Assembly (NCBI GenBank): GCA_013329055.1
Contig: DUKY01000020.1
Location: 1 to 44,538, forward strand
DNA from: Nanobdellota archaeon
Lineage (GTDB): Archaea; Nanobdellota; Nanobdellia; Pacearchaeales; GW2011-AR1
Direction: 5' to 3'
Length of the DNA stretch: 44,538 bases
This document shows, in pieces, positions 380-29,131 of the stretch (within the stretch, counting starts at the first letter, position 1; every line of letters starts with the position of its first letter). The notes beneath the pieces were generated by a model, which made no database searches, was not told the origin of the DNA, and worked only from the letters and a program-made list of their open reading frames with translations. The translations under genes and the position numbers were made by a program.

Positions 380-449
380 CTAATATATTCGTATTAAGTT
401 ATATATTTTCTTTTTTGTATTTTATATTAGCATTCAATGTTGTTATTCA
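380..449 (+). promoter_or_regulatory. Promoter of unit I: palindrome-like operator plus TATA box
   Basis: An imperfect palindrome, CTAATATATTCG (380-391), is followed about 29 bp later by a TATA-like TTTATATTA (about 421-429), and an ATG lies at 450. The same layout recurs at 13818-13883 and 17534-17602, where the palindrome is CGAATATATTCG or CGAATCTATTCG. The TATA-to-ATG distance suits a leaderless transcript starting at or near the ATG at 450. A short direct repeat, ATTCAATGTTG, also occurs just before and across that ATG. The operator role is inferred from recurrence and symmetry. Confidence 0.5.
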
Positions 450-677
450 ATGTTGAATTCTAAAGATGAACAAATGGAGAATGGTAACAGAATTAATAAT
501 CTGTTAATTGAAAATCCGCAAGGATTAACAATTACTGATTTAGTGAAGCTTTCGAAATTATCTCGTTCTACTGTTAGAAATGTTTTATCTAATTTTGAAG
601 GTGCAAAAATTGTTTTAATTAAAAAAATAGGTATGGCGAAGATTTATACCTTAAAGAGTCACCATGGGAAAATCTGA
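450..677 (+). CDS. Small winged helix-turn-helix DNA-binding protein
   Basis: This 75-residue protein matches a winged-helix fold. Helix 1 is around residues 12-22, the turn and recognition helix lie around 27-47 (LTITDLVKLSKLSRSTVRNV), and a beta-hairpin wing follows (IVLIKKIGMAKIYTLKS). Length and layout are typical of MarR/IclR-like minimal wHTH proteins in archaea. The ATG at 450 fits a leaderless start about 25 bp after the TATA box; the in-frame ATG at 474 is an alternative that removes eight non-conserved residues. It is the first gene of a long surface-protein operon and overlaps the next small ORF by 14 bp. It may autoregulate unit I, possibly through the palindrome at 380-391; that is inference. 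Confidence 0.72.
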   Translation: MLNSKDEQMENGNRINNLLIENPQGLTITDLVKLSKLSRSTVRNVLSNFEGAKIVLIKKIGMAKIYTLKSHHGKI

Positions 678-777
678 AACAATTTTAATTGATGATGATT
701 GGGATGATGTTTTTGATAAAGTTAAATCTGATTTTCATAAAAATATGTCTATCTTAGGAGATGATGATTATGAATAA
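664..777 (+). CDS. Small acidic protein, 37 aa
   Basis: This short ORF begins inside the end of the winged-helix gene and ends inside the start of the fibre gene. The chain of overlaps suggests translational coupling. The product, beginning MGKSETILIDDDWDDVFDKV, is very acidic with about 12 Asp/Glu residues and no membrane segment. Small acidic peptides beside a DNA-binding protein can be antitoxin-like or anti-repressor-like partners, but nothing here proves that. The coding evidence is the overlap pattern only. Confidence 0.4.
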   Translation: MGKSETILIDDDWDDVFDKVKSDFHKNMSILGDDDYE

Positions 778-3268
778 AAATTTATTAATTTTTTTTATTT
801 TTGTAATTCCTTTAATGAATTTTATTTTTGCAACGCCGGTTTTATTGAGTGATCAAGGAACAGATTTAAAATTAGTTTCAACAGGGGAATTATTATCTAC
901 CGGTAATATAACTATTTATATTTATGATTCTGTTACTGGCGGAAGTCTAATTTATAGTAATCTTTTTATTAATAATATTACAAACGGTTCTTGGAATGTT
1001 GTTATTAACCCTAACTTAGAATATGGAAAAAATTATTGGAAGGATTATAGTGTTAATGGAGACAATTTAAATTTTAGCGGAAATGACAGAATTCAATTTC
1101 AATCTCCTCTTGGTTTAATAAATAATGCCAGTTTGTTTAATTTTTCTTTAATTAATAGTTGTGCTGTTGGCAGTTCAATTAGGCAGGTTTCTGAAAATGG
1201 CTCAGTTCTCTGTGAAACCGACGACACAGGAAGTGGTGGAAATAGTTCATGGAATGAAAGTTATGCTAATACGAGGTATTTATTACAAAGTGAAGAAGGT
1301 AATTTAGATGTTAATTCAAGTGTATATTCAAATTCTAGTACTTGGTGGTCAGGCCTTTCTTCTTGGTTAAGTGGCTGGTTTATTAACAATGCCGGGGTAT
1401 TAGAATTTAACGAGACAAAGTTGAACAATACAATTGATTCCAGGGCTAGCGGATTAGGTGACAATAGTTCCTGGAATCAATCTCTCGCAAATAGTTTATA
1501 TATTCTTCAAAGTACAGAAGGAAATCTTGATGTTAATTCAAGTGTATATTCAAATTCTAGTACTTGGTGGAGTGGTTTAACAAGTTGGCTTAGTGGTTGG
1601 TTTGTAAATAACGCGGGGATATTAGAATTTAATGAGACAAAGTTGAATAATACAATTGATCTACGTGCGGGCGGAGATAATAGTTCATGGAATGAAAGTT
1701 ATGCAAATACTCAATATGCTGATATTTCTGTTGTTGATACTCAGAAAAATGCTAGTGGTAATTATGTATATAATGATTCAACAACAATTTATTTTAATGA
1801 GACAAAATTGAATAATACAATTGATTTACGAGCTGGTGGAGATAATAGTTCATGGAATGAAAGTTATGCAAATACTCAATATGCTGATATTTCTGTTGTT
1901 GATACTCAGAAAAATGCCAGTGGTAATTATGTATATAATGATTCAACAACAATTTATTTTAATGAAACAAAGTTAAATTATACAATCGATTTACGTGCGG
2001 GCGGAGATAATAGTTCATGGAATGAAAGTTATGCAAATACACAATATGCTGATATTTCTGTTGTTGATACTCAGAAAAATGCCAGTGGTAATTATGTATA
2101 TAATGATTCAACAACAATTTATTTTAACGAGACAAAGTTGAATAATACAATCGATTTACGGGCTGGTGGAGATAACAGTTCATGGAATGAAAGTTATGCA
2201 GATACTCAATATTCTTCAATAAGTGAACCCTTATGGAGTGCGAATTTCACTGCATATAATAGTAGTTGGAGTTCAACATTTAATTCAACTTATGATGGAT
2301 ATAATTTTACTGGTCTAATTAAGGATTGGAATTCAACCAGTTACATTAAGAATTGGAATTCTACGGGCTTAATAATTAATTGGTCAACTTCTTTAACTAA
2401 CGATAATACTTCATGGAATGAGAGTTATGCTAATACAAGGTATTTATTGCAAAGTGAAGAAGGTAATTTAGATGTTAATTCAAGTGTATATTCAAATTCT
2501 AGTACTTGGTGGAGTGGTTTATATTCTTATTTGAGTGGTTGGTTTGTAAATAATGCGGGGGTATTAGAGTTTAACGAGACAAAATTAAATAATACAATTG
2601 ATTTACGAGCTGGTGGAGATAACAGTTCATGGAATGAAAGTTATGCAGATACTCAATATTCTTCAATAAGTGAACCATTATGGAGTGCTAATTTCACTGC
2701 ATATAATAGCAGTTGGAGTTCAACGTTTAATTCTACTTATGATGGATATAATTCCACTGGTCTAATTAAGGATTGGAATTCAACTGGTTACATTAAGGAT
2801 TGGAATAATACAGGCTTAATAATTAATTGGTCATCATATTTAATTAGTGATAATAGTTCATGGAATGAGAGTTATGCTAATACAAGGTATTTATTGCAAA
2901 GTGAAGAAGGAAATCTGGATGTTAATTCAAGTGTTTATTCAAATTCTAGTACTTGGTGGAGTGGTTTATATTCTTATTTGAGTGGCTGGTTTGTAAATAA
3001 TGCTGGTGTATTAGAGTTTAACGAGACAAAGTTGAATAATACAATTGATTTACGGGCTGGTGGAGATAATAGTTCATGGAATGAGAGTTATGCTAATACA
3101 AAATATCTTCAAAATGGTACAAGTGTTAGATTTAGTGAGGTTAATGTTACTGGAAATATAACTACTGAAGAAATTCATTTTGAAAATGATATTGTCAATC
3201 ATAGAATTTATGATAACTCTACATGCGTGATTATAAATGGAGATACATCAACAATGTATATTTGTTAA
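770..3268 (+). CDS. Secreted repeat-rich fibre-like surface protein
   Basis: The 832-residue product begins with a signal peptide (MNKNLLIFFIFVIPLMNFIF, cleavage likely near FATP). An N-terminal beta domain (about 20-120) follows, of the kind seen at the base of fibre proteins. Most of the rest is repeats built from SWNESYANT, LDVNSSVYSNSSTWWSG, GWFVNNAGVLEFNETKLN and NTIDLRAGGDN. Three 55-residue units are almost perfect tandem copies. N-glycosylation sequons (NSS, NES, NET) are extremely dense. It ends with a short Cys-containing tail (STCVIING, TMYIC) and has no TM anchor. I chose ATG 770 over 761 because AGGAG (756-760) is well placed for it and the signal peptide then starts cleanly. The next gene starts in the stop codon (TAATG). 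It is probably a glycosylated surface filament or adhesin; its ligand is unknown. Confidence 0.75.
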   Translation: MNKNLLIFFIFVIPLMNFIFATPVLLSDQGTDLKLVSTGELLSTGNITIYIYDSVTGGSLIYSNLFINNITNGSWNVVINPNLEYGKNYWKDYSVNGDNLNFSGNDRIQFQSPLGLINNASLFNFSLINSCAVGSSIRQVSENGSVLCETDDTGSGGNSSWNESYANTRYLLQSEEGNLDVNSSVYSNSSTWWSGLSSWLSGWFINNAGVLEFNETKLNNTIDSRASGLGDNSSWNQSLANSLYILQSTEGNLDVNSSVYSNSSTWWSGLTSWLSGWFVNNAGILEFNETKLNNTIDLRAGGDNSSWNESYANTQYADISVVDTQKNASGNYVYNDSTTIYFNETKLNNTIDLRAGGDNSSWNESYANTQYADISVVDTQKNASGNYVYNDSTTIYFNETKLNYTIDLRAGGDNSSWNESYANTQYADISVVDTQKNASGNYVYNDSTTIYFNETKLNNTIDLRAGGDNSSWNESYADTQYSSISEPLWSANFTAYNSSWSSTFNSTYDGYNFTGLIKDWNSTSYIKNWNSTGLIINWSTSLTNDNTSWNESYANTRYLLQSEEGNLDVNSSVYSNSSTWWSGLYSYLSGWFVNNAGVLEFNETKLNNTIDLRAGGDNSSWNESYADTQYSSISEPLWSANFTAYNSSWSSTFNSTYDGYNSTGLIKDWNSTGYIKDWNNTGLIINWSSYLISDNSSWNESYANTRYLLQSEEGNLDVNSSVYSNSSTWWSGLYSYLSGWFVNNAGVLEFNETKLNNTIDLRAGGDNSSWNESYANTKYLQNGTSVRFSEVNVTGNITTEEIHFENDIVNHRIYDNSTCVIINGDTSTMYIC
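1673..2167 (+). repeat. Three tandem 165-bp coding repeats in the fibre gene
   Basis: Units begin at 1673, 1838 and 2003, and a fourth partial unit begins at 2168. Each encodes 55 residues running from GDNSSWNESYANTQYADIS to NTIDLRAG. The copies differ at only a few bases, so the array could expand or contract by recombination. Longer, less regular repeats of the LDVNSSVYSNSSTWWSG block recur near 1306, 1526, 2466 and 2916. Confidence 0.9.
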
Positions 3269-6200
3269 TGAAAAAAAAATATTTTTTTTTTGGGATTTTT
3301 GGACTTTTTATTTTATTAGTTATATTTAATTTTGTTTATGGTGCTAATTCATTATCCTCTTTTGATGGAATTTTTACAGAAGGTTTTGAATCTAATAACT
3401 TTTCTATAAACAATTGGACATTATCTGCTACGACATTCAATTGGACTATTTCTACGACAAATCCTTATTCAGGGAATTATTATGCTTTAGTAGAGCCAAA
3501 GGACGGGTCAGGTAGTGTTTTACAGACAGATTTGGATACAAGTAATTATATGAATATTAACATTTCTTTTTATGCTTATACTTCTGGTTTGGATACTAAT
3601 GAATATATTGCGGCAGATTGGTATAATGGAACATCATGGATAAATTTAATGCAAGTAGAAGATATTGCAAGTTATACTTTTTATAATTATTCTCTGCCAG
3701 CTTCTGCGAATAATAATTCTAATTTTAAGATAAGATTTAGATGTTTTGCAGGTAGTCCCAATGAAATTTGTGCTTTGGATAATATTCAGGTTCTTGGGAA
3801 TAAAATGTATTCTTCATTTTCTAATTGGAATAAAACCCCCTCTGATTTAAATACTAGTGTTTCAGGAAATATTTTAGTTAATGTAAGTATTAATGACTCA
3901 AATGGTGTTTCTAATTCAAGACTTTATTATAACAATAGTGGTGATTTAATTTCTGCAGGAATTTCTTCTCAAGATCTTGGTTATGTTAATATGACTTTGA
4001 TTAGCGGAACAAATTTTAGCGGAGTATGGCAAGGAAATCTTTCTCATTGGTTTTACAGACCTGCAAAATATAATCTATTTATTAAGGATATAGAAGATGT
4101 TAATGTCAGTTATCAAAATATTTATAATGGAATTTTAATGAAAGTTAATTTTACGGGAATTCCGGTTAATTCTAATCTGTCTTATAGGATTGATTTTTAT
4201 ATTCTGAATGAATCTTCTTTGAGTGATGATTGTTCTGTTTATTATTGTAACTCCAGTTATAATTCCGGTGATCCTATAAATAATAATTGCAGTTATATCG
4301 GGGGTCTTGAGATTTTATCTCCGACTTTGGTCTATGGAAGAAAAGCTTTAAGTTTTAGTCTTGATAATAATTCACAAACTAATTCAGTAATAGCAACTTC
4401 AAATATCTCAATTATTTTTGAAGCTAATCATATTAATAATACAAATGATTCATGGAAAATTCGGGAACAAAATATTACTTCAGGGGGTCATACTTATGTT
4501 TCTACAAATAATGGAACGAGTTGGGATTTGAAAAATGATTGGGAATCTGATGTGCATATTCATTGGTATGATTTTGCAAATAATCAGCAATTTCAATATT
4601 GGGCATGGGCAAATAATAGTTTGAATAATTCTATTAATTCAACATTGCAATATGATGTTTGGGAAATGGGTAGTGATCCTCCTTCAAAGCCTTCAATCAC
4701 AATTCCTGAAGGATATAATCATTATAAAGGGATTTTAAATATTACCTGGTTATCTTCAAATGATCCAAATGGTGATGCTTTCACATATAATATTAGTTTA
4801 TTGAATGAAGATGGAACTTTTAATAAAACGATTAACGGTTCTGTGAATCAAAATTTGAATTCCCATATTTATAATACTTCTTTATCTTTAGATGGAAGAT
4901 ATAAAATAAAAATTGAAGCATGTGATATTAATAATAATTGTAATTTTGATACGATGATATATTATTTTACTATTGATAATACTCTTCCTCAAATTCAATT
5001 TATTGATTCAACAATTTCAACAGGAAATTATTCTTTTAATTATATTTTTGCAAATGTTAGTGCTTATGATGCTAATTTTGATAATATTACTATTTATTTA
5101 TATAATTCTACAGGTCTTGTGTTTTCTAATTCAAGTAATTTAAATTTTTCTGTAAATTATACAGATCTTTCTAATGGTATTTATTCTTTGAATGCTACTA
5201 TTTTTGATCTTGCTGGAAATGTTAATCAAACTGAAACAAGAACAATTATTTTAGATAATATTCTTCCAGTGATAAATTCTATTAATGCAACCCCAAATCC
5301 CGTTAAATCGGGTCAAAATATTATTATTACTGCAAATGTAACTGATAGTATTTATGTTGATTCTGTCTTATTTAATTTAAATGGTGTGAATTATACAATG
5401 ATCAGATTTGGTGAGATTTGGAATTATTCTTATAATACTACTGGTTTAGAAGTTTTGATTTATAATTATACTATTTATGCTAATGATAGTTCAAATAATT
5501 TAATTTCCAGTATTGGGAATTTTTCTGTTGAGGGTTATTTTGTTAATATTAGCATACAAAATTCTTCAAATGCTTTGTTTAATTTTACATGTCTTATTAT
5601 TAACTCTACCGGAGAAATTATTCATAATGATACGGGAATGTCTCATACAATAAATCTTACTAAAGGATTTTATGAATTTAGATTGATTCCTATTAATTAT
5701 TCTTTTAAGGAAATTAAATTTCAGGAAATAAATGTTTCAAAAAGTTTAAGTCAAATTATAGATATTGAAAATTCTGTAGATAATTTTGGTTATAATAAAT
5801 TGTATTCTTTTAATCCTCTTCTTGATAATTTGACTTTTATAGAGAATCAAAGTAATTTAACAATTACTTTTACTGCTTCAAATATTACTAATAATAAAAT
5901 ATTGTATAAATGCGGTGATTGGAATTGGACAAATCAAAATTGTTCCGGGACTTGGGTTCCTATTCAAGGAATTTTCCCCGGAGAAGATTATACTTTTGTT
6001 ATGGATAATTTATCTGATCCGGGTTTAGCTGAGGGTAATGGAACTTTTTTTGAGGGGTTTGAGGGTACTCAGGCAGATAATCAGTCAACTGTTGGTTATG
6101 ATAATGCCGGGTGGACAATTATAGACGGCGGTATTTGGAATCCAAATGATAATGATCAATTTGCAGGTGTTCAGTCTCTTTCTGCAAAAAATACCGGGGG

Positions 6201-6726
6201 TATTTTTGCATGGAATGAAATAAATGTGAGTACACAAAATTATTCTAATGTTAGTTTGAGTATTTACTACAAGGATTCTAATAATTTTGAAGTTGGAGAA
6301 TTTTTGTCTGTTGATTGGTATAATGGTACAACCTGGATTAATGAAGTTAATGTTTCAAATGTTGCAACTTATACTTTATTTAATCAAACATTATCTACTA
6401 ATGCTGCGAATAATTCAAATTTTAAGATTCGATTGGGTTGTAAAAATAATGCGGCGAATGAATTTTGCTACTGGGATAATGTTCAAATTACCGGGCAAAC
6501 TAGCACTTGCACTTATTCTGGTTCCGGAAATTGGTTAGTTAGTTGTTCAGATAACTGTTTAATTACTTCTAATGTTAATCTTTTGGGCAATAATATTTCT
6601 ATTACCGGTACTGGTACATTTTCTACAACTGCGAATATTACTAATTTTAAACAATTATTTATTGCCGGGACTAGTTCAACCAATCGTTGTCAAGTTTATT
6701 GTTCAGGTGGAGGTTGTTTTAAATGA
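3268..6726 (+). CDS. Large secreted adhesin-like protein with MAM-like and Ig-like domains
   Basis: The 1152-residue protein has a signal peptide (KKKYFFFGIFGLFILLVIF, ending near VYG). Two copies of a MAM/concanavalin-like beta-sandwich domain share EGFE at the start, ADWYNGTSWIN or VDWYNGTTWIN in the middle, and NNSNFKIR, then LDNIQV or WDNVQI, at the end. They lie around residues 18-190 and 925-1085. Between them are Ig/fibronectin-like blocks with DNTLPQIQF and DNILPVINS boundaries. The C-terminus is Cys-rich (CTYSGSGNW, VSCSDNC, CSGGGC). Sequons are dense and there is no TM anchor. The ATG overlaps the stop of the fibre gene by one base, and the stop overlaps the next start. It probably works as a cell-surface binding protein in the same assembly as its neighbours. 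Confidence 0.7.
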   Translation: MKKKYFFFGIFGLFILLVIFNFVYGANSLSSFDGIFTEGFESNNFSINNWTLSATTFNWTISTTNPYSGNYYALVEPKDGSGSVLQTDLDTSNYMNINISFYAYTSGLDTNEYIAADWYNGTSWINLMQVEDIASYTFYNYSLPASANNNSNFKIRFRCFAGSPNEICALDNIQVLGNKMYSSFSNWNKTPSDLNTSVSGNILVNVSINDSNGVSNSRLYYNNSGDLISAGISSQDLGYVNMTLISGTNFSGVWQGNLSHWFYRPAKYNLFIKDIEDVNVSYQNIYNGILMKVNFTGIPVNSNLSYRIDFYILNESSLSDDCSVYYCNSSYNSGDPINNNCSYIGGLEILSPTLVYGRKALSFSLDNNSQTNSVIATSNISIIFEANHINNTNDSWKIREQNITSGGHTYVSTNNGTSWDLKNDWESDVHIHWYDFANNQQFQYWAWANNSLNNSINSTLQYDVWEMGSDPPSKPSITIPEGYNHYKGILNITWLSSNDPNGDAFTYNISLLNEDGTFNKTINGSVNQNLNSHIYNTSLSLDGRYKIKIEACDINNNCNFDTMIYYFTIDNTLPQIQFIDSTISTGNYSFNYIFANVSAYDANFDNITIYLYNSTGLVFSNSSNLNFSVNYTDLSNGIYSLNATIFDLAGNVNQTETRTIILDNILPVINSINATPNPVKSGQNIIITANVTDSIYVDSVLFNLNGVNYTMIRFGEIWNYSYNTTGLEVLIYNYTIYANDSSNNLISSIGNFSVEGYFVNISIQNSSNALFNFTCLIINSTGEIIHNDTGMSHTINLTKGFYEFRLIPINYSFKEIKFQEINVSKSLSQIIDIENSVDNFGYNKLYSFNPLLDNLTFIENQSNLTITFTASNITNNKILYKCGDWNWTNQNCSGTWVPIQGIFPGEDYTFVMDNLSDPGLAEGNGTFFEGFEGTQADNQSTVGYDNAGWTIIDGGIWNPNDNDQFAGVQSLSAKNTGGIFAWNEINVSTQNYSNVSLSIYYKDSNNFEVGEFLSVDWYNGTTWINEVNVSNVATYTLFNQTLSTNAANNSNFKIRLGCKNNAANEFCYWDNVQITGQTSTCTYSGSGNWLVSCSDNCLITSNVNLLGNNISITGTGTFSTTANITNFKQLFIAGTSSTNRCQVYCSGGGCFK

Positions 6727-9700
6727 TTAAACAATTAATTTTTGTTTTTTTTATTTTATTTTTTGTGCCTTTAACTTTTGCTGAGGTGAATCAATCAGAA
6801 ATAAATATTTTTGCACAGGGTGTTAATTATGTTGTTAATATGTTTACTTTTGGTTCGCAAGGTTCTTTAACTGAAGGGGTTTATGAATCAAGATTTATTA
6901 CTACCGGTATAGAAACCGGAAGTTCTCATGCTCAGGGTGAATTATATTTAGCGAATGTTGGTTTTTTAGGCAATTCTTCTAGTTTAGAAGTTACCCCTGC
7001 TCCTACTCCGACTCCTGTTACAACTCCTACAACTGCCGTGGGAGGAGGGGGTGGTGCGGTTATTGTTCCTGAATGTCTTGATGATTCTAATTGTGATTTA
7101 GGAGAATTTTGTTTTGAAAATAAATGTTATGTTTATGAATGTGAAACTGACGCTGATTGCAATGATACAAAAACCTGCTGGATGAATCGTTGTGTAAAAC
7201 TCTTTGATATGAAAATAGTTGATCTTGCTTCTCCGATTTATCCTGGTGAATTTTTTAATTTTACATATTATCTTAAAGGTGTTGCACAAATTCATGGTGA
7301 TGTTAAGGTTAATTTTTGGCTAGAAAAAGATGGAATAAAAGTTACAGATGGATATGATACTATTTATATGGGGGATTTTGAAGAAAAATTGGAATCTTCT
7401 AAATTATTTTTGCCTATTAGTATTTTAGATGGAGTGTATAATTTTTATGCAGAAGTAAATTATGATTCTTATTATGCCCGAGCTTCGAGGGCTGTTGAAG
7501 TCTCTAAGGAATTTAGACGGCTTGGAGATTATGAATTGTTGGATATATTATTTCGTTTAGAAACTCGAGAGATTTCTAAACCTGAAGATCTTGTTGCTTT
7601 AATTGATTTTGAAAGTTTTGGAACAATTCCTGCAAAGATTAATTATAATTTGATTATCTCTCAAAAGAATAAAGAAGTTTATTCTGAAGATGGAAAATTA
7701 ACTGTTGAAACTTCAGAGACATTAAGAAAAACTTTTGATAATTTAATCCTAAAAAAAGGATTTTATAATATGCAATTTAATGTTGTTTATGGCGAGGGTG
7801 TTTCTGAAGATTTTAATACTGATTTTGAAGTAATTAAGAGCTTTAGTTTTGTAGATAGAGTTAAGGATTTTATTATTAAATATTTGACTTGGCCAATTAT
7901 ATTCCTGTTGATATTATTTATTTTTGTAAAATTAAGAAGAAGATTTAAGAAAAAGCAAATTGATAACTTTTCGAAAGAAACTTATCAATTTTTTGAAGTT
8001 TCTTTCTTTAAACGTTTTTTTATAAATTTAAAAAACATTTTTATCCCAAAAGAAAAAATAAGAAAGATACAGAAGAAAAAAGTTATTTTAAAAAAGGAAA
8101 AATCTTTTTTTTCATCTATTCTTGAAAAAATAAAGTACAGAAGCCTAGAAAAGAAACGGGAACAAAAAGAAAGGGAATTAGAACATCATAAGATTGAAGT
8201 TTTGGAACAAAAGAAAGAATTATTAGCTGTTAAAGAGAGCGAAAAAATAAAAGAGAAAGAAAGGTTATTCCGACAAAAAAGATTTGATAAACTCAAAAAA
8301 TATTTCGGTAATTTTTATTTTAATATCCAGAAAAAGATTAATTCTAAGCGTTTAGAATGGGAGCAAAAACAAAAAGGAGATGAATTAATCAAGAGAAAAT
8401 GGGATGAGATAAGAGAATTACAAAAAATTCAAGAGGGAAGATTTAAAGAAATAGAATCAAAGAGAGAAGAAAAATTAAAAGAAGAAGAAAGATTATCTCG
8501 ACAAAAAAGATTTAATGAATTTAAAAAATATTTTAGTAATTTTTATTCTAATGTTAAGAAAAAGATTAAGTCTAAGCGTTTAGAATGGAAGCAAAAGCAA
8601 AAAGAGAATGAATTTATTAGAGAACAAGAAGAAGAAAAAAAAAGATTGCAAAAGGTTAGAGAAGACAGATTTAAAGAAATAGAATCAAAGAGAGAAGAAA
8701 AAATAAAAGAGGAAGAAAGATTATCCCGACAAAAGAGATTTAATGAATTTAAAAAATCTTTTAGTAATTTTTATTCTAATCTCAAGAAAAAAATTAGGTC
8801 TAAGCGTTTAGAATGGAAGCAGGAACAAAAAGAGAAAGAATTAATCAAGAAACAAGAAGAGGAGAGAAAAAGCTTGCAAAAGATTAAAGAAGACAGACTT
8901 AAAGAAATAGAATCAAAGAAAGAAGAAAAAATAAAAGAGGAAGAAAGATTATCTAGGCAAAAAAGATTTAATGAATTGAAAAAATCTTTTAGTGATTTTT
9001 ATAATGCTCTTAAGAAAAAAATTAATTCTAAGCGTTTAGAGTGGAAGCAGAAACAAAAGCAAAAGGAATTAATAAGAAAGCATGAAGAAAAAATAAGAAT
9101 TGAGGAAAAAAGAATAAAAGATAAATTATTAAGGGAAAAAATAATTGAAGAAAAAAAGTATAAAGAAAAAATATCCGAGATTAAAAGAATTCAGGATAAA
9201 AAAATTAAAAAAAGTTTATCTAATTTAAAAGATGTTGAGAAAGATATTGATAAAATTAAAGGCTTTGATAAAATTAAAGAACCGATATATAACTTTTTTA
9301 AAAAGATTAAACAGGTAAATCTTAAACCTAAACCTTCTCAAAAGAAAATTGTTATTGAAAAAGAATTAATTTTAGATGTTAATAAACCTTTAAATTATTT
9401 TAGAAATTTTTTCAAAAAAAAGCCTTCATTTAAACCAATTGATGAATCTAATCAAAAATCTAAATTATTTTTAGATGAAAATCTTGATAAAATCCCTTCC
9501 GAATCCTCAATAAAAAATGAAGTTTCTCCAAAAAATTCTAAATCTTTTTTAGATTTTATAAAAGAACTTGGAAACAGAAATAAAATCTCTTTTCCAAAAA
9601 AAGAAAATGATTCTGAAGAAATTTTAAATTCTTTTATGAATCAAAAATTTAATCCTAAACCTAAACGATCTTTTTTAAGTCTTTTTTATGAAAAAAAGGA

Positions 9701-13807: not shown

Positions 13808-13817
13808 TGGGCTTTAA

Positions 13818-19165: not shown

Positions 19166-19172
19166 AAGAAAT

Positions 19173-21155: not shown

Positions 21156-21160
21156 TTTAA

Positions 21161-22234
21161 ATGTCTGTTTCTTTTAATTCAAGATTTGTAACTAAAAAAT
21201 TTCTTTTTTCCTTAATTTTTATTTTTTTTATATTCCTTTTGGTTTTTTTAATTCTTGATGGTTATTTTGAATTAAAAAGAGATTTGAAGATTTATAATGC
21301 TGATGCAAAAGATATTATTAATCAAAGAATTAATTCCTTATTATCTGAAACTGATCCTTTACCTGAATCTTTAAAAGAGAATTTGTTATTTATAAGCGAA
21401 TTATCAAGCTTTAAGAAATTTATTAATGAGGGGGATTCTAATTTAAATGATTTAGAAGAAGATTTTTTAAGCCTTTTAACACAAAATGATATTTATTATC
21501 AAATTATTTTTTTAGATTCATTTGGAAATGAAAAAATAAAAGCAATTTCTAAAGATTCTACTTTTAGTATAGCATTACCTTCTGAATTGTCTAATCAAAA
21601 GGAAAGCGATTATTTCAAAGAATCTTTAAAATTATCCCGTGGCGAATTTTTTATTTCAAGACTTTCATTGAATATTGAGAATAATTCTTTTGAAAATCGT
21701 GGGAGTTTAGAGAATCCTCTTTATGTTCCGGTTATTAACATAGCAACTCCAATCTTTAATGATAATAATTCATTTAAAGGCATACTTTTAGAAAAAATTT
21801 ATATTAGTTATTTTTTAAATGATATTAAACATTTTCAGCGTAATAATGAAAAGATATTTTTAGTTGATTCTGAAGGTTATTATCTTTCAAATCCCGATGC
21901 AGATAAGGAATTTGCTTTTTCTTTTGGAAATAATTATAATTTTTATAATGATTATCCTGAAATTTCTAAGGAAACTTTAACTGATTTTAAAATAAGGGAT
22001 TTTGAATCTAAGGACTTGGTTTTTTCATTCAGACATATTTATTCTAACAATTATTCTTTAATTTTAATTAGCATCTCAGATAAAGATGAAATTAATAAGA
22101 TTTCTTCACAATTAAGAATGGAATATTTTATTTTTTTATTTTTTTCTTGTTTTATTGTATTTATGATATTGATTTTCATTTTTATTTTAACTTTTAGATT
22201 TAATAATGGTGATATTCGGAGGAATAAAAAATGA
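21161..22234 (+). CDS. Cache-like membrane sensor without output domain
   Basis: The 357-residue protein has TM1 (about 14-32), an extracellular region (about 35-310) with Cache-like features, and TM2 (about 323-345), then a short basic tail. The features are a long first helix, IIFLDSFGNEKIKAIS, YVPVINIATPIF, GILLEKI and KIFLVDSEGYYLSNP, which together suggest a double-Cache fold of another subfamily than the genes at 14067 and 23417. It lacks the conserved Cys pair of those. No kinase, HAMP or methyl-accepting part follows. Its end overlaps the start of the ABC_sub_bind gene, which suggests joint action with that binding protein. Confidence 0.68.
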   Translation: MSVSFNSRFVTKKFLFSLIFIFFIFLLVFLILDGYFELKRDLKIYNADAKDIINQRINSLLSETDPLPESLKENLLFISELSSFKKFINEGDSNLNDLEEDFLSLLTQNDIYYQIIFLDSFGNEKIKAISKDSTFSIALPSELSNQKESDYFKESLKLSRGEFFISRLSLNIENNSFENRGSLENPLYVPVINIATPIFNDNNSFKGILLEKIYISYFLNDIKHFQRNNEKIFLVDSEGYYLSNPDADKEFAFSFGNNYNFYNDYPEISKETLTDFKIRDFESKDLVFSFRHIYSNNYSLILISISDKDEINKISSQLRMEYFIFLFFSCFIVFMILIFIFILTFRFNNGDIRRNKK

Positions 22235-23280
22235 ATTGCAATCAAAAAATTGTTCTTGTAGGTGTTTTTACGATTTTACTAATTGTAATTTTAATTTTCT
22301 CTTATTTTATTTTTAGAAGCCCTTGGAAATTTCGGGAAGATAGACCGATTAAGATTCTTGTTCTTAATAGTTTTGATTCTCAATATTTTTGGGTAGAAGA
22401 ACAAGTTGATGCATTTTTTGAGGTATTTCAAAATGAGAACATTCCTGTTGAATATCAAATTATTGATTTAGGTTTTGTTGGGTTAGAGACAACTATAAAA
22501 GAATCTAAAATTCAAACTGTTTTGAGTTTTATTAATGATTATAATCCTGATTTAATCTATTCTATTGGTGAAGATTCTCAAATTTATTTTGGTAAAATCT
22601 TTGAAGATTCAGATACTCCTTGGGTTTTTTCATGGATTGTAAATCCTGAAAAATATGTTGGTGCAAAAAATGTCGCCGGTGTTTCTCCTGTATTACCCTT
22701 ATCAAAATATTATGAATCCTGGATAGATCTTTTTCCTGGTTTAAAAAATGTTGTTGTAATTTATGAAGATACAGAAGAAGCAAGAAAAATTATTGAAATG
22801 GTAAAAAGTGTAAAAGCTGAAGAATCCTTAGGTTTTATATTTTCTAATATTTCTTTTATTTCTACTTTTGAAGAATTTAAATTTAAAGTTTTAGAGTCTC
22901 AGAATGCTGATTTAATTGTGGTGAGTTATTTAGAATCTTTAAAAAATGATAGTGGTGATTTTGTTCCTCGTTTAGAAGTTGTAGAATGGCTTATCAGTCA
23001 TAGCAATGTTCCGGAATATTCTCAAGAAAAAGCTTTAATTAAAGATGGTTTATTATTTTCTTTTAATCCTTCTGCATATGGGCAAGGAAAAGTAGCAGGC
23101 GATGTTGCATTTAATATCCTAGTTAATGGGCAATCCCCTCTTGAAATAGGTATGATTATTCCTGAATTTGGGGAAAGAAGTATAAATCTTAAACGTGCGA
23201 GAATGTTGGGTCTTGATATTCCTAGTTCTATCTTAATTAATTCTGAAGTATATGAAAATTTTTCATGGGAGGGAAGATGA
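22231..23280 (+). CDS. Membrane-anchored ABC_sub_bind periplasmic-binding-like protein
   Basis: The 349-residue protein has an N-terminal TM anchor (about 9-28) and then a two-lobed substrate-binding fold. Signatures are IKILVLNSFDSQYFWVEEQV at the first strand, DLIYSIGEDSQIYFGKI, NVAGVSPVLPLSKYYE, NVVVIYE, a second-lobe GQGKVAGDVAFNIL and KRARMLGLDIPSSILI. This last motif is typical of the ABC_sub_bind (PF04392-like) family. No permease or ATPase gene lies nearby, so it more likely presents ligand to a sensor than feeds transport. It overlaps the Cache-like gene by four bases. Its last codons (YENFSWEGR) form the first copy of a tandem repeat. Confidence 0.75.
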   Translation: MNCNQKIVLVGVFTILLIVILIFSYFIFRSPWKFREDRPIKILVLNSFDSQYFWVEEQVDAFFEVFQNENIPVEYQIIDLGFVGLETTIKESKIQTVLSFINDYNPDLIYSIGEDSQIYFGKIFEDSDTPWVFSWIVNPEKYVGAKNVAGVSPVLPLSKYYESWIDLFPGLKNVVVIYEDTEEARKIIEMVKSVKAEESLGFIFSNISFISTFEEFKFKVLESQNADLIVVSYLESLKNDSGDFVPRLEVVEWLISHSNVPEYSQEKALIKDGLLFSFNPSAYGQGKVAGDVAFNILVNGQSPLEIGMIIPEFGERSINLKRARMLGLDIPSSILINSEVYENFSWEGR

Positions 23281-23408
23281 AAATTTTTCAATTGTTCGCT
23301 TTAAGTAAAGCTTCACACTATGAAAATTTTTCATGGGAGGGAAGATGAAAATTTTTCAATTGTTCGCTTTAAGTAAAGCTTTACACTATGAAAATTTTTC
23401 ATGGGAGG
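23251..23408 (+). repeat. 68-bp tandem repeat, about 2.3 copies, at a gene junction
   Basis: Copies start at 23251, 23319 and 23387 (partial) with a 68-bp period. Each holds the end of the upstream gene (YENFSWEGR), a GGGAGG ribosome site, an ATG and the start of a small ORF. ATGAAAATTTTTCAT inside the unit is nearly palindromic. Copies 1 and 2 differ mainly at AGCTTCACA versus AGCTTTACA. Confidence 0.92.
23278..23349 (+). CDS. 23-aa ORF created by the 68-bp duplication
   Basis: It begins MKIFQLFALSKASHYENFSW and ends in EGR, just like the upstream protein. Its ribosome site and start lie inside repeat copy 1 and its stop lies in copy 2. A second, similar ORF starts at 23346 and runs in frame into the dCache gene, adding 23 residues before Met 23417. 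It is probably a by-product of the duplication, but the ATGA junctions would keep ribosomes moving. Confidence 0.3.
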
Positions 23409-23416
23409 AAAAAAAA

Positions 23417-24922
23417 ATGAAATTCCTTTTTGTATTTTTAATAACGTTTTTACCTTTAAGTTTATTTGTAGGTAGTTCTATTTTTATTTATGATAATTTT
23501 TATGGGAATAAACCATTTGAAAATCAAATTTTAAAAGATTTAGAAAATTTTGCAAATTCCAAAGCAAATTTAATTCAGGAAGAATTTAACGGAGTAAAAG
23601 AGGATGTTTCTTTTTTATCTAATTCTAAAGAGATTAAAAATATTTTTAATCAGGATTTAATTTATGATGTGAATGTTGTAAAAACTCAGATAAGATTAAA
23701 CTCTCAAAGAGTTAGCAAAAATATAGAAGAATTTTTAATATTACATCCTGAAATGACTTTAGAGGATTTATTAAAAAGTGAAGAGTTTAATAAAATAGCT
23801 ATTCAACAAGTTGGTGAAACCGGTTATACTTATGTTGGTTCAATGGTTGATGGAATTTTTTATTTTCATCCGGATGTTAATGTTAGACTTAAATCTTATA
23901 ACACTTGGGAAGATATTTTTCCGGATATTTGGAGATTAATTGATGATATCATTAAATCTTCTCCCTGTCAAGATTCAGAAGGTTTTTATGACTGGAAAGA
24001 TATTAATGGAGTTATAAGAAAAAAATATACTTATCATTCTTGTATTAATGCAAAAACTAAGGATAATTATACTTTTTATATCGGAGCGTCAACATATATC
24101 GATGAATATAGTGAAACTGTAAGATTAGCAAGTGAGTTAGATAAAGAATTAAGAAATTTTCAAGAGGTGCATGATTATGATGATTTAATTTTAATTAATA
24201 AAAATGGAGACATTATATGGACTTTTAAAAAAGAAAATTATTTAGGGATAAGTCTTAATAAAGGAGTATACAATTCTTCAACTTTATCAAAAATTTATAA
24301 TAAAGTAAAATCTGATTTAGGAATTAGTGTCTTTGGTCCTATTTATTCAGATTTAACAAATGAAAATATCATACTTGTAACATCTCCAATTTTCAATTAT
24401 GATAATCAAACTAATAAAAATAATTTTATTGGAATAATTGCAATTAAATTAAAAAATGATTATTTAATTCATTTAGTAGAAAATACTTATTTGGATGGTT
24501 CAGGAGAAATTTATCTGGTAAATCGTGAGGGTGAACACTTAACTCCATTAAAATATTTTCCTTCAGAGCAGAGGCATGATATTAATTCAGAGCGAATTAA
24601 TCTTTGTTTTCAGGATTATTACAATTATTATCTTAAACAAGGCGGGAAATCAACAGAAGTAATTAAAAAATCCGGGATATACAAGAATTATATTGATAAA
24701 CCTGTTTTTGGTGCTCATCAATATATTTTAGAATCCGGATTATGTTTATTAGTTGAAATTTCCGAAAAAGAATTTTTAACAGAAATAAGCAAAAAAACTG
24801 ATAATTCTTTTAAAGAGATAATATTCTATTTTATTTTATTCTCTTTGATAATTATTTTTTTCCTTTTTTTTATCTTTGAATATTTTTTTAAAATTAATTT
24901 AATTGAGGGGGTAGAAAAATGA
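23417..24922 (+). CDS. Double-Cache membrane sensor without output domain
   Basis: The 501-residue protein has TM1 (about 2-20), an extracellular dCache domain (about 30-460) and TM2 (about 470-493), with only a short tail. It is a clear paralogue of the gene at 14067: matching segments are HPEMTLEDLLKSEEFNKIA, GETGYTYVG, GFYDWKDINGVIRKKY, EIYLVNREGEHLTPL, NLCFQDYYNYY and VFGAHQYI. The same four Cys are present. I chose Met 23417 because GGAGG (23404-23408) precedes it and the TM then starts at once. The upstream in-frame extension comes from the tandem repeat. It overlaps the next sensor gene by four bases, repeating the two-sensor arrangement of unit II. Confidence 0.82.
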   Translation: MKFLFVFLITFLPLSLFVGSSIFIYDNFYGNKPFENQILKDLENFANSKANLIQEEFNGVKEDVSFLSNSKEIKNIFNQDLIYDVNVVKTQIRLNSQRVSKNIEEFLILHPEMTLEDLLKSEEFNKIAIQQVGETGYTYVGSMVDGIFYFHPDVNVRLKSYNTWEDIFPDIWRLIDDIIKSSPCQDSEGFYDWKDINGVIRKKYTYHSCINAKTKDNYTFYIGASTYIDEYSETVRLASELDKELRNFQEVHDYDDLILINKNGDIIWTFKKENYLGISLNKGVYNSSTLSKIYNKVKSDLGISVFGPIYSDLTNENIILVTSPIFNYDNQTNKNNFIGIIAIKLKNDYLIHLVENTYLDGSGEIYLVNREGEHLTPLKYFPSEQRHDINSERINLCFQDYYNYYLKQGGKSTEVIKKSGIYKNYIDKPVFGAHQYILESGLCLLVEISEKEFLTEISKKTDNSFKEIIFYFILFSLIIIFFLFFIFEYFFKINLIEGVEK

Positions 24923-26790
24923 AGTTAGGTAATTTATTATTTTCTTTTTTATTTTTTTTAATTTTAATATTTGGAAGTTTATTTTTTTATTCTTTAAACT
25001 ATCTTGAAGATGGATATTTTAATCAGGAAGTAAAAAATAATCTTGAAAGTCTTACTAATATTCGGGCTGAAAGAATTAATAATTATTTTGATGAAAGAAA
25101 AGAAGATTTGATTTTTATCTCTGAATCAGATAAAATAAAAAGTTTATTTAAACAAAACACTGTTATCAATGAATCTTTTGCTATAAATGATGTAAATTAT
25201 CATTCAAAGATTATTTTTAAAGAGGTTGAAAACTTTTTAAAATTTCATCCAAAAATAACTTTAAAAGAATTACAGGAAAATAATGAATTTAAAAATTTAG
25301 CGGTTCAATCATTGGGTAATCAAGGTTATAGTGCTATTGCCGGGAATAATAATCTTATTCTTTTTCACAAATATGATTCTTTTATTGGAAAAACTATTTT
25401 TTCTCTTGGGAATCCTGAGGCATTAAATTTAGTTAATTTTGCAAGAATTACCGGAGAATCTCAAGGATTTTTTAATTGGACTGACCCTGATAATATCACC
25501 CGAAAAAAATACGGAAAACTTATTAGAATCCCTTCTGAAATTTTTAATGAATCTATTTTAATTATTGTTGTTACAACTTATGTTGAAGATTATAAAGAAT
25601 TAAGCAATATTAATTTAGAAACACAAAATTATTTAACTGATCTTAAAAATTCTTATGATTTTTATAATTTAAATTTAATTTCTCCAAATGGTGATATTAT
25701 TTATTGTAATAAACAGATTGTTGATCATAATGGTGAAAATCTTTTATGGAATGAAAATTTAGAAGATGGGGATTCAAATCATTTTAAGATTGTTCAAAAG
25801 GATTTAAAACCTTCTGTATTTGGTCCATTTATTACCAGTTATGGGGATATTTATCCAAAAATTTCTTTGATGAATCCTGTTTATGATGAGAATAAAAATT
25901 TATTAGGTTTTATAGATTTAACTTATGATCTTCAAAAGATATGGGGTATAACTGAAGAAAAAAGCGGTTTAGGTGAAACAGGCGAAATTTATCTTGTTGA
26001 TTCAGAAGGTTTATTGATTAGTAAATTAAAAAATAATGATTATAATCTTTTAATACAATCTATTGAAAGTGAAAATACTGATAGATGTTTTGAAATGGAT
26101 AATTTAGGTCATATGAAACATTTTCCTGTTGATATTTTTTTAAATTATAATGGAGAGGCTGTTCTTGGTGCTCATAGTGAATTCTCTGATCCAAAATGGT
26201 GTTTATTAGCCGAAATAGAAACTCAGGAAGTTTTTGATATTCCAAAAGCTGAAAAAGAATTTAAGAATAATATCTTTCTTTTTTTATTAATTATTTCTTT
26301 ATTAATTATTTCTTTGATTATTCAAATTTATTTTAATAAATTTATTATTTTAAGAAAGAAAAATCTCATCAGCGGATATTCTTTAATAGATAATTTATTT
26401 TTAAAATTAAAAGATTTCTTTATAAAATTTAAATTATTGCATTCTATTTTATTTGCTTTAATCTTTGCAATTTTTTATTTTTTTGTCTCTACCTTGTTCT
26501 TTAATGGATGGCAGAATGCAAAGTTTTACGATGATATTCCTGATTTACTTGTTATAATCGTGAGTTTTATGACCTTAATTTATTCTTTTAGAATAGATAA
26601 ATTTAAACCCAGAAATTTTATTCAATTCGGATCATTATTTATCTTATTACAAAGATTATTGGAAATTCCATTGCAGGAATATCAGGCAATCGCTGGAACT
26701 TTATCACTATTTATTTGGATCCCTGTGATATTCTTAGGTTATTTAGGTATTTTATTTATTCTTCTAGGATTTAAGGAGGTTGTAAAATGA
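24919..26790 (+). CDS. Double-Cache sensor with C-terminal multi-TM domain
   Basis: The 623-residue protein has TM1 (about 5-25), a dCache domain (about 30-440) and TM2 (about 450-472). After a basic loop comes a C-terminal domain of about four TMs (about 505-620, ILFALIFAIFYFFVSTLFF onward). The sensor part carries EIYLVDSEGLLISKL, DRCFEMDN and KWCLLAEIE, matching the 15545 protein, but the C-terminal domain is different: membrane helices instead of Ig-TM. The extra helices could be the signalling contact, since no cytoplasmic domain exists. It overlaps both neighbours by four bases. Confidence 0.8.
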   Translation: MKLGNLLFSFLFFLILIFGSLFFYSLNYLEDGYFNQEVKNNLESLTNIRAERINNYFDERKEDLIFISESDKIKSLFKQNTVINESFAINDVNYHSKIIFKEVENFLKFHPKITLKELQENNEFKNLAVQSLGNQGYSAIAGNNNLILFHKYDSFIGKTIFSLGNPEALNLVNFARITGESQGFFNWTDPDNITRKKYGKLIRIPSEIFNESILIIVVTTYVEDYKELSNINLETQNYLTDLKNSYDFYNLNLISPNGDIIYCNKQIVDHNGENLLWNENLEDGDSNHFKIVQKDLKPSVFGPFITSYGDIYPKISLMNPVYDENKNLLGFIDLTYDLQKIWGITEEKSGLGETGEIYLVDSEGLLISKLKNNDYNLLIQSIESENTDRCFEMDNLGHMKHFPVDIFLNYNGEAVLGAHSEFSDPKWCLLAEIETQEVFDIPKAEKEFKNNIFLFLLIISLLIISLIIQIYFNKFIILRKKNLISGYSLIDNLFLKLKDFFIKFKLLHSILFALIFAIFYFFVSTLFFNGWQNAKFYDDIPDLLVIIVSFMTLIYSFRIDKFKPRNFIQFGSLFILLQRLLEIPLQEYQAIAGTLSLFIWIPVIFLGYLGILFILLGFKEVVK

Positions 26791-27041
26791 ATCTATTAAT
26801 TTATTTTATGCTTAATTTAATTTTTGTTTTATCATTTATATGGTATCTTACAATAATTATGCTTCAGATTAAAAAAATTATCGTTTTTTTGCCATTTTTT
26901 ATTATCGGAATATTATATCTTATGCAATCATCATTTATCTATTATTCACTTTATCTGAATTTCGTTTGGTTAGTTATAGAATTAACTTTTTTAATAAATC
27001 TAATATGGATTTTTATTTTAATCAGGAGGAAAAATGCTTAG
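26787..27041 (+). CDS. Small three-TM membrane protein
   Basis: The 84-residue protein is almost entirely hydrophobic with about three TM helices (residues 2-24, 31-50 and 55-80) and a basic end (RRKNA). It overlaps the sensor gene upstream by four bases and the TM-PotD gene downstream by eight. Together with the next protein's six helices it could form one membrane unit. No family is recognised. Confidence 0.62.
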   Translation: MNLLIYFMLNLIFVLSFIWYLTIIMLQIKKIIVFLPFFIIGILYLMQSSFIYYSLYLNFVWLVIELTFLINLIWIFILIRRKNA

Positions 27042-28614
27042 TGATATTTTAACTTTAACTCTTTATTTAATAATTAATCTGTTAACTATAATCTTAATCG
27101 GAAATTTAATTTTTGAATACTTCTCAAGAGATAAAACGAACCGTAAAGGTTTTAATTATCTATTTATTATTTGTTTTTTTATTTTGATTTTTTATATTAT
27201 TGAAAATATTCGTTTTTTTACAGATATCTCTAAAGAATTTTTTTGGATTCTTGATTTTTCATTTGTAAGTGTTATTTTATTTTTAATCTTTTTATTTAGC
27301 TATGCTAATTGGGAAAAAATAAATAAATCTTTATTATACTTATTTGTTTTTACTAATTTTTCTGCGGCAATTTTTGAGCTTTTCTTTAAAATTCGTTATC
27401 CTGCATTATTTGATTTTGTAAATGTTTTTTTTATTTTTTTAGGTTTATTATTCTTTTATTTTTTTATTTTAGATTTTTTAATGATTAAAAATGCTATTAA
27501 AGAAAGTAAAAAGACAAAACAATATCATAAAAAATTATTATTTTATTTAGTTAGTTGCTTTTTAATTTTCATAATCGTCTTATCACTTTTTTATTTTATT
27601 CCTTATATTCAAAAGTCTAAATTCTCCGGAGAATTAAATATTTATAACTGGGATACTTATGTTGCAGAGGATACTATTTCCAATTTTGAAAATATTTATG
27701 GAATTAAAGTTAATTATAAAACTTTTGAAGATGATAATCTTATGTTTGAAGAATTAAAATTAAATTCCGGAGAGTATGATTTGGTTGTTGGTGAAGGAAA
27801 TTTAATAAAAGAGATGATTAAATTAGATTTGCTTTCAGAATTAAATAAAAAAAATTTGCAGAATTTTAAAAATCTTGATGAAAAGTTTATTAATCAGAAT
27901 TATGACCCTCAAAATAAATATTCTATTCCTTATATGTGGGGTACAACGGGTCTTATAATAAATACTAAATATATCCCTGATAATACAGATAGCTGGGATG
28001 TGCTTTGGAGCAATAAATATTCCGGAAAAATAGGTTTATTGTTGAATTCTGAAGAAGCTGTTGCACTGACTTCAAAATATGTTGGCGGTCCTTTAATGCC
28101 ACAAAATAATGCACAATTTGAAAAAATAAAAGAATTTCTTTTATTGCAAAAACTTCTTTTAAAAGGTTATATTCTAACTGCAGATTTACAGGATCTTTTA
28201 GTTTCTGAAGAATTATGGGCTTTAAATATTTATAATGGCAATGCTGTTGTTGCAATAGCTGAAAATCCAAATTTAAAATATATTATTCCTAAAGAAGGAG
28301 CAACTATTTGGATAGATAATTGGGCAATTCCAAAAAATGCAAAAAATAAACGGAATGCAGAACTTTTTTTAAATTATATTTTGGAACCGAAGGTTAATGC
28401 AGATATAACTAATGAGGTTAAGTATGCTACGGCAAATAAAGCTGCAGAAGAATTTTTAGACTCAGAAGTTCTTTCGGATCCTATAATTTATCCTGATGAG
28501 GAAACAATAAAAAGATTAGATTCTTTTACGAATTATGAATTTTCTGATGAAATGAATTTGAAAATTCTTGAATTCTGGAATGAATTAACCGGGGGTGAAG
28601 AAAATGCAAACTGA
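27034..28614 (+). CDS. Six-TM protein fused to PotD-like binding domain
   Basis: The 526-residue protein has about six TM helices in residues 1-192, with no recognisable permease loop. An extracellular substrate-binding domain of the spermidine/putrescine (PotD/PotF) type follows (about 200-526). Binding-domain signatures are LNIYNWDTYVAEDTISNFEN, GEYDLVVGEGNLIKEM, YSIPYMWGTTGLIINT, SWDVLWSNKYSGKIGLL and IDNWAIPKNAKNKRNAELFL. PotD normally feeds an ABC permease; here it is fused to a membrane domain and no PotABC genes are present. A sensing role for polyamines or similar compounds is inferred. It overlaps the small TM gene by eight bases and the terminal Ig-TM gene by 11. Confidence 0.78.
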   Translation: MLSDILTLTLYLIINLLTIILIGNLIFEYFSRDKTNRKGFNYLFIICFFILIFYIIENIRFFTDISKEFFWILDFSFVSVILFLIFLFSYANWEKINKSLLYLFVFTNFSAAIFELFFKIRYPALFDFVNVFFIFLGLLFFYFFILDFLMIKNAIKESKKTKQYHKKLLFYLVSCFLIFIIVLSLFYFIPYIQKSKFSGELNIYNWDTYVAEDTISNFENIYGIKVNYKTFEDDNLMFEELKLNSGEYDLVVGEGNLIKEMIKLDLLSELNKKNLQNFKNLDEKFINQNYDPQNKYSIPYMWGTTGLIINTKYIPDNTDSWDVLWSNKYSGKIGLLLNSEEAVALTSKYVGGPLMPQNNAQFEKIKEFLLLQKLLLKGYILTADLQDLLVSEELWALNIYNGNAVVAIAENPNLKYIIPKEGATIWIDNWAIPKNAKNKRNAELFLNYILEPKVNADITNEVKYATANKAAEEFLDSEVLSDPIIYPDEETIKRLDSFTNYEFSDEMNLKILEFWNELTGGEENAN

Positions 28615-29131
28615 TGTAAATAATAATCATGGGGTAAAACAAAAATATTTATTATTAATTATTTTTTTGCTAATAATTAATTTTTCTAATTTTATTTCTG
28701 TTTCAGCTTTGAGTGTTGCTGTGCATGTTCCTGAAAAATATACTGATGTTGTTGCCGGTGAAAGATTTTATTTTGAAATTGAGGTTAAATATCCTGAAAA
28801 CCCGAAGAGAAAAGATTTGAAGTTAAATTATGAAATTATTGATTCTGACGGAAAACTTATTGCTCAATCAAAAGTTTTAAAGGCTGTTGAAACGCAAGCT
28901 TCATTTATTGATTTTATTGTTATTCCTGAAAGTGCTTCTAAAGGATTATACATTATTCGTGTAAAAATTGCAGATTATGAGGATTTAAGTGAAGAGGTTG
29001 AAGCAAGTTTTCAAATTGTTGGCTCTGGTTTTGGACAAGTTCAGATTTATTTCTTTATTATTTTGGGTGTTTTAATTCTCGTAGCAATTCTAGTTATTAC
29101 AAGTCTTTTTGTTACGAGAAGAAGAAGATAG
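28604..29131 (+). CDS. Membrane-anchored Ig-like ectodomain protein, end of unit III
   Basis: The 175-residue protein has a short polar start, a signal-like TM (about 15-34), one Ig-like domain (about 37-138) and a C-terminal TM (about 150-170) ending in RRRR. Its Ig-TM part is nearly identical to the C-terminus of the 15545 protein and clearly related to the gene at 13259, the last gene of unit I. I chose ATG 28604 with GGGGGTG (28591-28597) as ribosome site, the same arrangement as the receiver gene. Strong conservation of two copies suggests a fixed partner surface, for example a common co-receptor. No cytoplasmic domain is present. Confidence 0.75.
   Translation: MQTDVNNNHGVKQKYLLLIIFLLIINFSNFISVSALSVAVHVPEKYTDVVAGERFYFEIEVKYPENPKRKDLKLNYEIIDSDGKLIAQSKVLKAVETQASFIDFIVIPESASKGLYIIRVKIADYEDLSEEVEASFQIVGSGFGQVQIYFFIILGVLILVAILVITSLFVTRRRR
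28682..29127 (+). repeat. Dispersed ~446-bp near-identical repeat, copy 2 (Ig-TM module)
   Basis: It matches 17085-17530 about 11.6 kb upstream in the same orientation. Differences are mostly third-position changes. Homologous recombination between the copies would delete or excise unit III. Confidence 0.9.

Follow-up and report, generated by a model that had tools for sequence, protein, structure and literature searches.

Histidine kinases (HKs) are known to pass a phosphoryl group to receiver (REC) domains, dCache domains are sensors in characterised systems, and in bacteria extracellular receptor proteins feed histidine kinases, as in LuxP-LuxQ, ChvE-VirA and TorT-TorS. In archaea, KaiC-like ATPases reportedly act as signalling hubs. 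Response regulators (RRs) in which REC is fused to DUF835, an inactive KaiC-like domain, occur in Methanomicrobia and Thermoplasmata, and, according to the same survey, most REC-only regulators of archaea lack a conserved gene neighbourhood (Galperin et al., 2018, PMC5847659). Here we describe three linked operons (units I-III) that occupy about 29 kb of the small genome of an uncultured Nanobdellota archaeon, within a window that is the whole stretch of DNA analysed (44,538 nucleotides, contig DUKY01000020.1). They encode a soluble HK, a single-domain receiver and a DUF835-like protein together with surface proteins and membrane-bound receptors, and the system is a new form of archaeal two-component/KaiC signalling. 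Several related genomes contain these gene sets in the same order, and the three operons therefore look like a genuine module by which the cell senses and touches its surroundings. Our tentative reading, whose chance we put just short of even, is that a two-component system with split receptors is joined here to a module for surface fibres.

Kinase and sensor modules across the order

The source assembly comprises 1.19 Mb in 26 contigs, with a completeness estimate of 84.9%, and all unit genes lie on the + strand (Table 1). Unit I (450-13807) encodes, in order, a winged helix-turn-helix (wHTH) protein, a fibre-like protein, IgLec, CysCC, a protein with an Ig2 domain and a transmembrane (TM) segment, the HK, the receiver, the DUF835/KaiC-like protein and an Ig-like TM protein (Ig-TM). 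Unit II (13884-17533) consists of a small TM peptide, a dCache protein and a dCache-Ig-TM fusion, and unit III (17603-29131) of a ribbon-helix-helix (RHH) protein, a Cys-rich TM protein, a split fibre, an Ig2 protein, a dCache-type sensor, ABC_sub_bind, two dCache proteins, TM84, a PotD-like protein and Ig-TM. An original prediction from the bare sequence had seen three consecutive units, each closing with a paralogous Ig-TM gene, and this holds for three same-strand runs whose ends lie at 13807, 17533 and 29131. Its inventory of genes left out the HK, the response regulator and the DUF835-like gene (10254-13262), and its remark that nearly all genes overlap suits units I (8 of 9 junctions) and II (2 of 2) but not unit III (6 of 11).

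Apart from this kinase, the assembly contains no HisKA match and no HATPase match of kinase-like strength; with three PAS domains and no TM segment the kinase is not a transmembrane sensor kinase. The residues expected of a two-component pair are present, namely the phospho-His box of HisKA, the N and G boxes of HATPase_c and the Asp/Ser/Lys set of the receiver, of which Asp56, Ser82 and Lys105 are invariant in relatives. Kinase and receiver genes are adjacent and co-conserved, and phosphotransfer between their products is predicted. The third protein has KaiC/RecA-like similarity with the P-loop lost; it is called DUF835-like because it misses the curated cut-off of PF05763 (26.7 vs 33.1 bits), yet its relatives and profile support a KaiC-like ancestry. 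No CheA, MCP or Arl gene is among the annotated genes of units I-III, to which that search was confined.

When 206 genomes of the order were searched for DUF835, 8 of them held the close subfamily (E < 1e-60), and L044 was added by an independent scan; these genomes are mostly draft assemblies with mechanical calls of open reading frames (ORFs), and absence means absence from the assembly. Besides the window, HK-RR-DUF835-Ig-TM occurs as seven cassettes in six genomes (G148, G014 twice, L044, J156/G147, G119 and G074), where G148 and G057 (Pacearchaeota RIFOXYB2_FULL_43_25) are taken as one genome, as their contig coordinates agree, and G014/L042 is Candidatus Pacearchaeota RBG_13_36_9, placed in the same family as the window genome, whose owner is accordingly a Pacearchaeota-like DPANN archaeon. 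One contig of G148/G057 reads fibre-IgLec-CysCC-HK-HK-RR-DUF835-Ig-TM, its receiver forming two short ORFs, probably by frameshift, and G119 has fibre-IgLec-CysCC-dCache-HK-RR-DUF835-Ig-TM. Fibre-IgLec-CysCC thus precedes the kinase, with order kept, in three genera (window, G148 and G119), whose DUF835 proteins form one clade (support 94/99). HK-RR-DUF835 is found without Ig-TM in G113/P6-17, and DUF835-Ig-TM without HK in G155; among 57 relatives, 11 have HisKA. More distant relatives carry further HK-RR-DUF835 clusters that include dCache-HAMP-PAS, one (L030, G006) adding hemerythrin and KaiC and another (L032, G022) an NMT1-type binding protein and a hemerythrin-KaiC fusion.

Five of the six dCache matches of the genome fall in units II and III, and none carries a cytosolic signalling module, which bears out the description of these sensors as lacking an output. 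PF02743 exceeds its cut-off in the products of 14067-15548 and 24919-26790, the other three dCache-type proteins lying below. The PotD-like protein belongs to that family by an SBP_bac_8 match above cut-off and a near-full-length alignment to PotD, and a polyamine-like ligand may be expected. A 68-bp unit, present as three copies in tandem (23233-23436), lies between the genes for ABC_sub_bind and Cache4 and contains a repeated start-like sequence. Comparable sensor arrays are found on a second contig of G148 (wHTH, dCaches, Ig2, Ig-TM, Peripla_BP_6, dCaches, TM84, PotD-like, Ig-TM), in G116 (wHTH-dCache-dCache-86 aa-PotD-like-Ig-TM) and in G156 (wHTH-PotD-like-dCaches-Ig-TM-Cache3-Ig-TM, interrupted by a contig end), all three with short-tailed Ig-TM.

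Ig-TM is the element common to the kinase and sensor modules. The copies of units I and III share 40% amino acid (aa) identity, and an AlphaFold model of the unit I protein has an Ig-like beta-sandwich and one long TM helix (pLDDT 85), with which Foldseek returned generic Ig-like folds only. The cytosolic tails are basic and 23-55 aa long in nine of nine kinase-module copies but 2-6 aa in six of six sensor-module copies, unit II being counted by its printed C-terminus. This tail-length contrast, together with the shared Ig fold, suggests, without proving, that Ig-TM is an adaptor with kinase-side and receptor-side forms.

Over 478 nt the Ig-TM sequences of units II and III agree at 93%, their central stretch being nearly identical, and of the differences among 142 codons 23 are synonymous and 2 non-synonymous; protein identity is 37% for Cache1/Cache4 and 33% for Cache2/Cache5. 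In G148 the Cache2 counterpart is unfused, and TM84 and PotD-like genes lie between it and Ig-TM. The simplest reading is that unit II was derived from a unit III-like operon by loss of TM84 and PotD, the ends probably being homogenised later by gene conversion. The units had been thought to share one plan, and they do have in common the Ig-TM end, the fibre and Ig2 families and the promoter (II and III, weakly I), but units I and III are not copies of each other. Three copies of one plan were rejected as an origin, given Cache proteins 24-37% identical against 93% for the II/III ends, and modules that are separately distributed.

Unit heads and surface proteins

As predicted, units I and III are headed by small DNA-binding proteins, a wHTH protein above the HTH_IclR cut-off and a 47-aa Arc-like RHH protein (PHROG E 7e-4). 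The unit-head protein is a case of a wider rule, in which the wHTH family stands directly upstream of surface/receptor genes across the order. The family was found in 48 of 206 genomes and 36 of 105 genera; at the loci examined the downstream gene lay on the same strand in 26 of 26 cases and was of secreted/TM type, called by a simple hydrophobicity rule, in 20 of 26, compared with 2 of the 28 genes lying upstream and 42 of 242 ORFs taken as background. Family members stand at or near the head of the sensor modules of G148, G116 and G156, and in G113 (L075 1-432) wHTH, TM and a fibre-like N-terminus share one frame that runs off the contig start. The second wHTH gene of the window genome (L140 2519-3606, contig C10) overlaps another gene, whose secreted product has two Ig2 domains and a TM segment. 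As a regulatory rule this pairing stands apart and is widespread in these archaea, and no description of wHTH-surface pairs was found in the open-licence literature.

Units II and III have a common 57-bp upstream block, 93% identical, and the composite ACGAATNTATTCG-GTATTC matches the whole assembly only at these two blocks (reversed pattern, 0 matches); the exact composite is absent from G014 and G057, both of which were searched. Palindrome matches with one mismatch number 4 in the window vs 0.8 expected. A similar palindrome-TATA promoter had been proposed for all units, which is borne out for II and III by the shared block and unique composite, but unit I is only loosely alike, with a one-mismatch palindrome. 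Leaderless starts are plausible for all three, since the spacing from palindrome to ATG is alike (70, 66 and 69 bp in units I, II and III) and a TATA-like element lies about 25 bp before each ATG.

Fibre-like proteins had likewise been assigned to units I and III; the repeat sequences are there, and the word 'fibre' has this repeat-sequence basis alone. In the unit III gene the repeat spacing is once 205 rather than 204, and this 1-nt shift near 19155, either a mutation or an assembly error, breaks the reading frame in two; for the C-terminus of the gene product the predicted fold had a pLDDT of 31 and a search of solved structures gave no result. A prophage or virus origin of the fibre is not supported, as PHROG matches are weak and a scan of viral contigs with the unit III fibre C-terminus gave no relative. 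The C-terminal 78 aa of IgLec are conserved (74% in G119 and G148), and the cytosolic coiled-coil part of CysCC contains four copies of a 228-bp repeat at 8241-9224. Directly after unit III lies a restriction-modification island (30184-39441: SLFN_AlbA_2 protein, PD-(D/E)XK nuclease, N6_N4 methylase and type III restriction (RES) subunit), and an archaeal 16S rRNA gene begins at 43761 and continues past the window end.

Table 1. Features of units I-III and the evidence for each (window positions).
Feature	Coordinates	Strand	Evidence
Near-palindrome CTAATATATTCG, upstream of unit I	380..391	+	One mismatch to CGAATNNATTCG; 70 bp before wHTH start
75-aa wHTH protein, first gene of unit I	450..677	+	Pfam HTH_IclR 24.5 bits, cut-off 22; relatives' copies paired with surface/receptor genes
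Fibre-like secreted repeat protein	761..3268	+	NSSWNESYANTQY repeats; repeat families D2, D4, D6; homologues in G148, G119, G177
IgLec, Ig/lectin-like secreted protein	3223..6726	+	Pfam Big_13 sub-threshold
CysCC: Cys-rich ectodomain, Ig2 domain, TM, long cytosolic Lys-rich coiled coil	6723..9734	+	Sequence, repeats D1, order-wide search
Ig2-TM protein	9688..10257	+	60% identity to CysCC Ig2; paralogue also of Ig2 in 20070-21155 protein
Soluble HK, 3xPAS-HisKA-HATPase, no TM	10254..12446	+	Domain searches; H-, N-, G-boxes intact
Single-domain response regulator	12403..12771	+	Asp56 phospho-acceptor, conserved Ser82, Lys105; 59-68% identity in relatives
DUF835/KaiC-like protein without P-loop	12777..13262	+	ArlH 4yds E 7e-4 (DUF835 profile)
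Ig-TM, unit I, 25-aa basic cytosolic tail, kinase-module type	13259..13807	+	Sequence comparison, AlphaFold model
Unit II promoter block, palindrome CGAATATATTCG and TATA	13815..13871	+	Repeat and motif searches
34-aa single-TM peptide ORF, first substantial ORF of unit II	13964..14068	+	Sequence
Cache1, dCache protein without cytosolic output	14067..15548	+	PF02743 54.8 bits, above cut-off; 45% to G148 counterpart
Cache2, dCache fused at about residue 500 to Ig-TM	15545..17533	+	Homologous pair separate in unit III and G148
Unit III promoter block	17531..17587	+	93% identical to unit II block
47-aa RHH (Arc-like) protein	17603..17746	+	PHROG E 7e-4
Cys-rich single-TM surface protein	17743..18324	+	Sequence
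Unit III fibre-like protein, two ORFs (18395-19165, 19173-20069)	18395..20069	+	1-nt shift in 204/205-nt repeat
Ig2-containing surface protein	20070..21155	+	37% to CysCC Ig2
Cache3, dCache-type sensor without output	21161..22234	+	HK_sensor_dom_bact 66 bits
TM-anchored ABC_sub_bind ligand-binding protein	22231..23280	+	PF04392 41.5 bits
Cache4, dCache sensor without output	23333..24922	+	PF02743 36 bits, below 45-bit cut-off; 36.6% to Cache1
Cache5, dCache sensor with extra C-terminal TM helices	24919..26790	+	PF02743 59.6 bits
TM84, 84-aa multi-TM protein	26787..27041	+	Relative in G148; similarly placed 86-aa ORF in G116
Multi-TM N-terminus with PotD/PotF-like solute-binding domain	27034..28614	+	SBP_bac_8 91.7 bits; 4gl0 E 8e-51; PotD 1pot E 2e-47
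Ig-TM, unit III, 4-aa cytosolic tail, sensor-module type	28595..29131	+	93% nt identical to unit II copy

A putative split receptor and its alternatives

The split-receptor reading is drawn from the conserved order, the intact residues, the lost P-loop, the tail contrast, the presence in the window of the HisKA protein and five of the six dCache matches, the REC-DUF835 precedent and the wHTH pairing. The dCache and PotD-like ectodomains would bind small external ligands, and a change in ligand would reach the soluble kinase via membrane partners, with Ig-TM as the shared adaptor whose ectodomains may meet outside and whose long-tailed form may contact the kinase or the DUF835 protein inside. 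The kinase would then phosphorylate the receiver, which may act by binding the DUF835 protein, as a split REC-DUF835, rather than DNA, while the small wHTH and RHH proteins might act at the palindromes and set receptor and fibre expression. The purpose would be to tune how the cell attaches to a host or surface by what it senses outside. A more specific version, in which the output-less dCache and PotD-like receptors would be coupled to one soluble HK by interchangeable Ig-TM adaptors, with short tails at the receptors and long ones at the kinase, and fibre expression or engagement would feed back through a wHTH that can be joined to the fibre, we hold to be rather unlikely.

Several points weigh against the split receptor. 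Both the coupling of sensors to kinase and the action of wHTH and RHH at palindromes are steps that we infer, the physical and genetic link and the DNA targets being putative, and fibre identity, trimeric fold included, is read from sequence character. The sequence read around the start of this genome's second wHTH gene (145 bp) lacks the palindrome, which is thus no general operator of wHTH proteins. Kinase modules come without detected dCache genes in G014, G113, G155 and J156, and G116 and G156 have sensor modules but no DUF835 cassette in the 206-genome search; no HATPase match resembling a kinase turned up in G156, and G116 yielded a single kinase of weak similarity, on a 5-kb contig. These sensor modules without the cassette are the main evidence against a fixed path from the sensors to this kinase, tempered by the completeness of both assemblies (about 87%).

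The alternative that survives best, though we think it somewhat unlikely, is that adhesins, a two-component system and receptors or ligand-capture proteins are three independent modules, co-located in a surface-gene island by chance or shared regulation with no single path. The original prediction of one modular system is partly supported in that the families recur in order in other genomes (G148, G119 and G116), but the evolutionary modules are adhesin, kinase and sensor, and each occurs without the others in related genomes. All are together only in the window genome and, on two contigs, in G148; fibre, IgLec and Cys genes are also present without the kinase in many genomes, and the region adjoins a restriction-modification island, as variable islands often do. 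Against independence stand an Ig-TM that is common to kinase and sensor modules and differs systematically in its tail, an adhesin-kinase order kept in three genera, and a unique promoter element common to units II and III.

It is quite improbable that the sensor units serve mainly ligand capture and uptake, with multi-TM proteins importing nutrients that dCache and PotD-like proteins bind on the cell surface, and the kinase answering other, internal PAS signals. PotD-like and ABC_sub_bind proteins are solute-binding folds, multi-TM partners are present, and sensor operons exist where no cassette kinase was found; however, domain searches of the unit genes found no ABC ATPase or permease domain, characterised dCache domains are sensors, and the distant relatives described above place dCache-HAMP-PAS and NMT1-type binding proteins beside HK-RR-DUF835. 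Least probable of all is that the surface proteins have their output in the wHTH and RHH proteins instead of the kinase, forming membrane-proximal one-component switches whose linked DNA-binding protein is controlled by the state of the fibre or receptor, for although the gene after wHTH is so regularly co-oriented and surface- or receptor-like and G113 has its wHTH-TM-fibre fusion, this is a single fusion in a single assembly, and wHTH lacks a TM segment in the window and nearly all relatives.

Comparison with described systems

No description of Pacearchaeota kinases or of two-component surface systems in DPANN was found in the open-licence literature. Among bacterial systems, LuxP-LuxQ, ChvE-VirA and TorT-TorS also keep the ligand-binding protein separate from the kinase, but the window kinase has no TM segment, its receptors are membrane-bound without cytosolic domains, and the linking part is only putative. 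The solute-binding domain of 27034-28614 aligns nearly full length with the polyamine-binding proteins PotD/PotF, yet it is fused to a multi-TM N-terminus and no ABC transporter partners were found in the units. ArlH/FlaH (4yds) is the only solved-structure match of the DUF835 profile, from which the window protein differs by its missing P-loop and by its neighbourhood, which is not an archaellum operon.

The closest relatives are the REC-DUF835 systems, which likewise combine a PAS-rich soluble histidine kinase, a receiver and a P-loop-less KaiC-like partner (PMC5847659). Here, in contrast, REC and DUF835 are separate genes followed by an Ig-TM gene, the sensors are separate membrane proteins, and the whole is tied in fixed linkage to a module of surface fibres, the lineage being one of DPANN. 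Unlike most REC-only regulators of that survey, the window receiver has a conserved neighbourhood: a single-domain archaeal receiver has here, in an uncultured lineage in which kinases are rare, a conserved set of partners with receptors and surface fibres, and signal input, adaptor and output can therefore be tested with named proteins.

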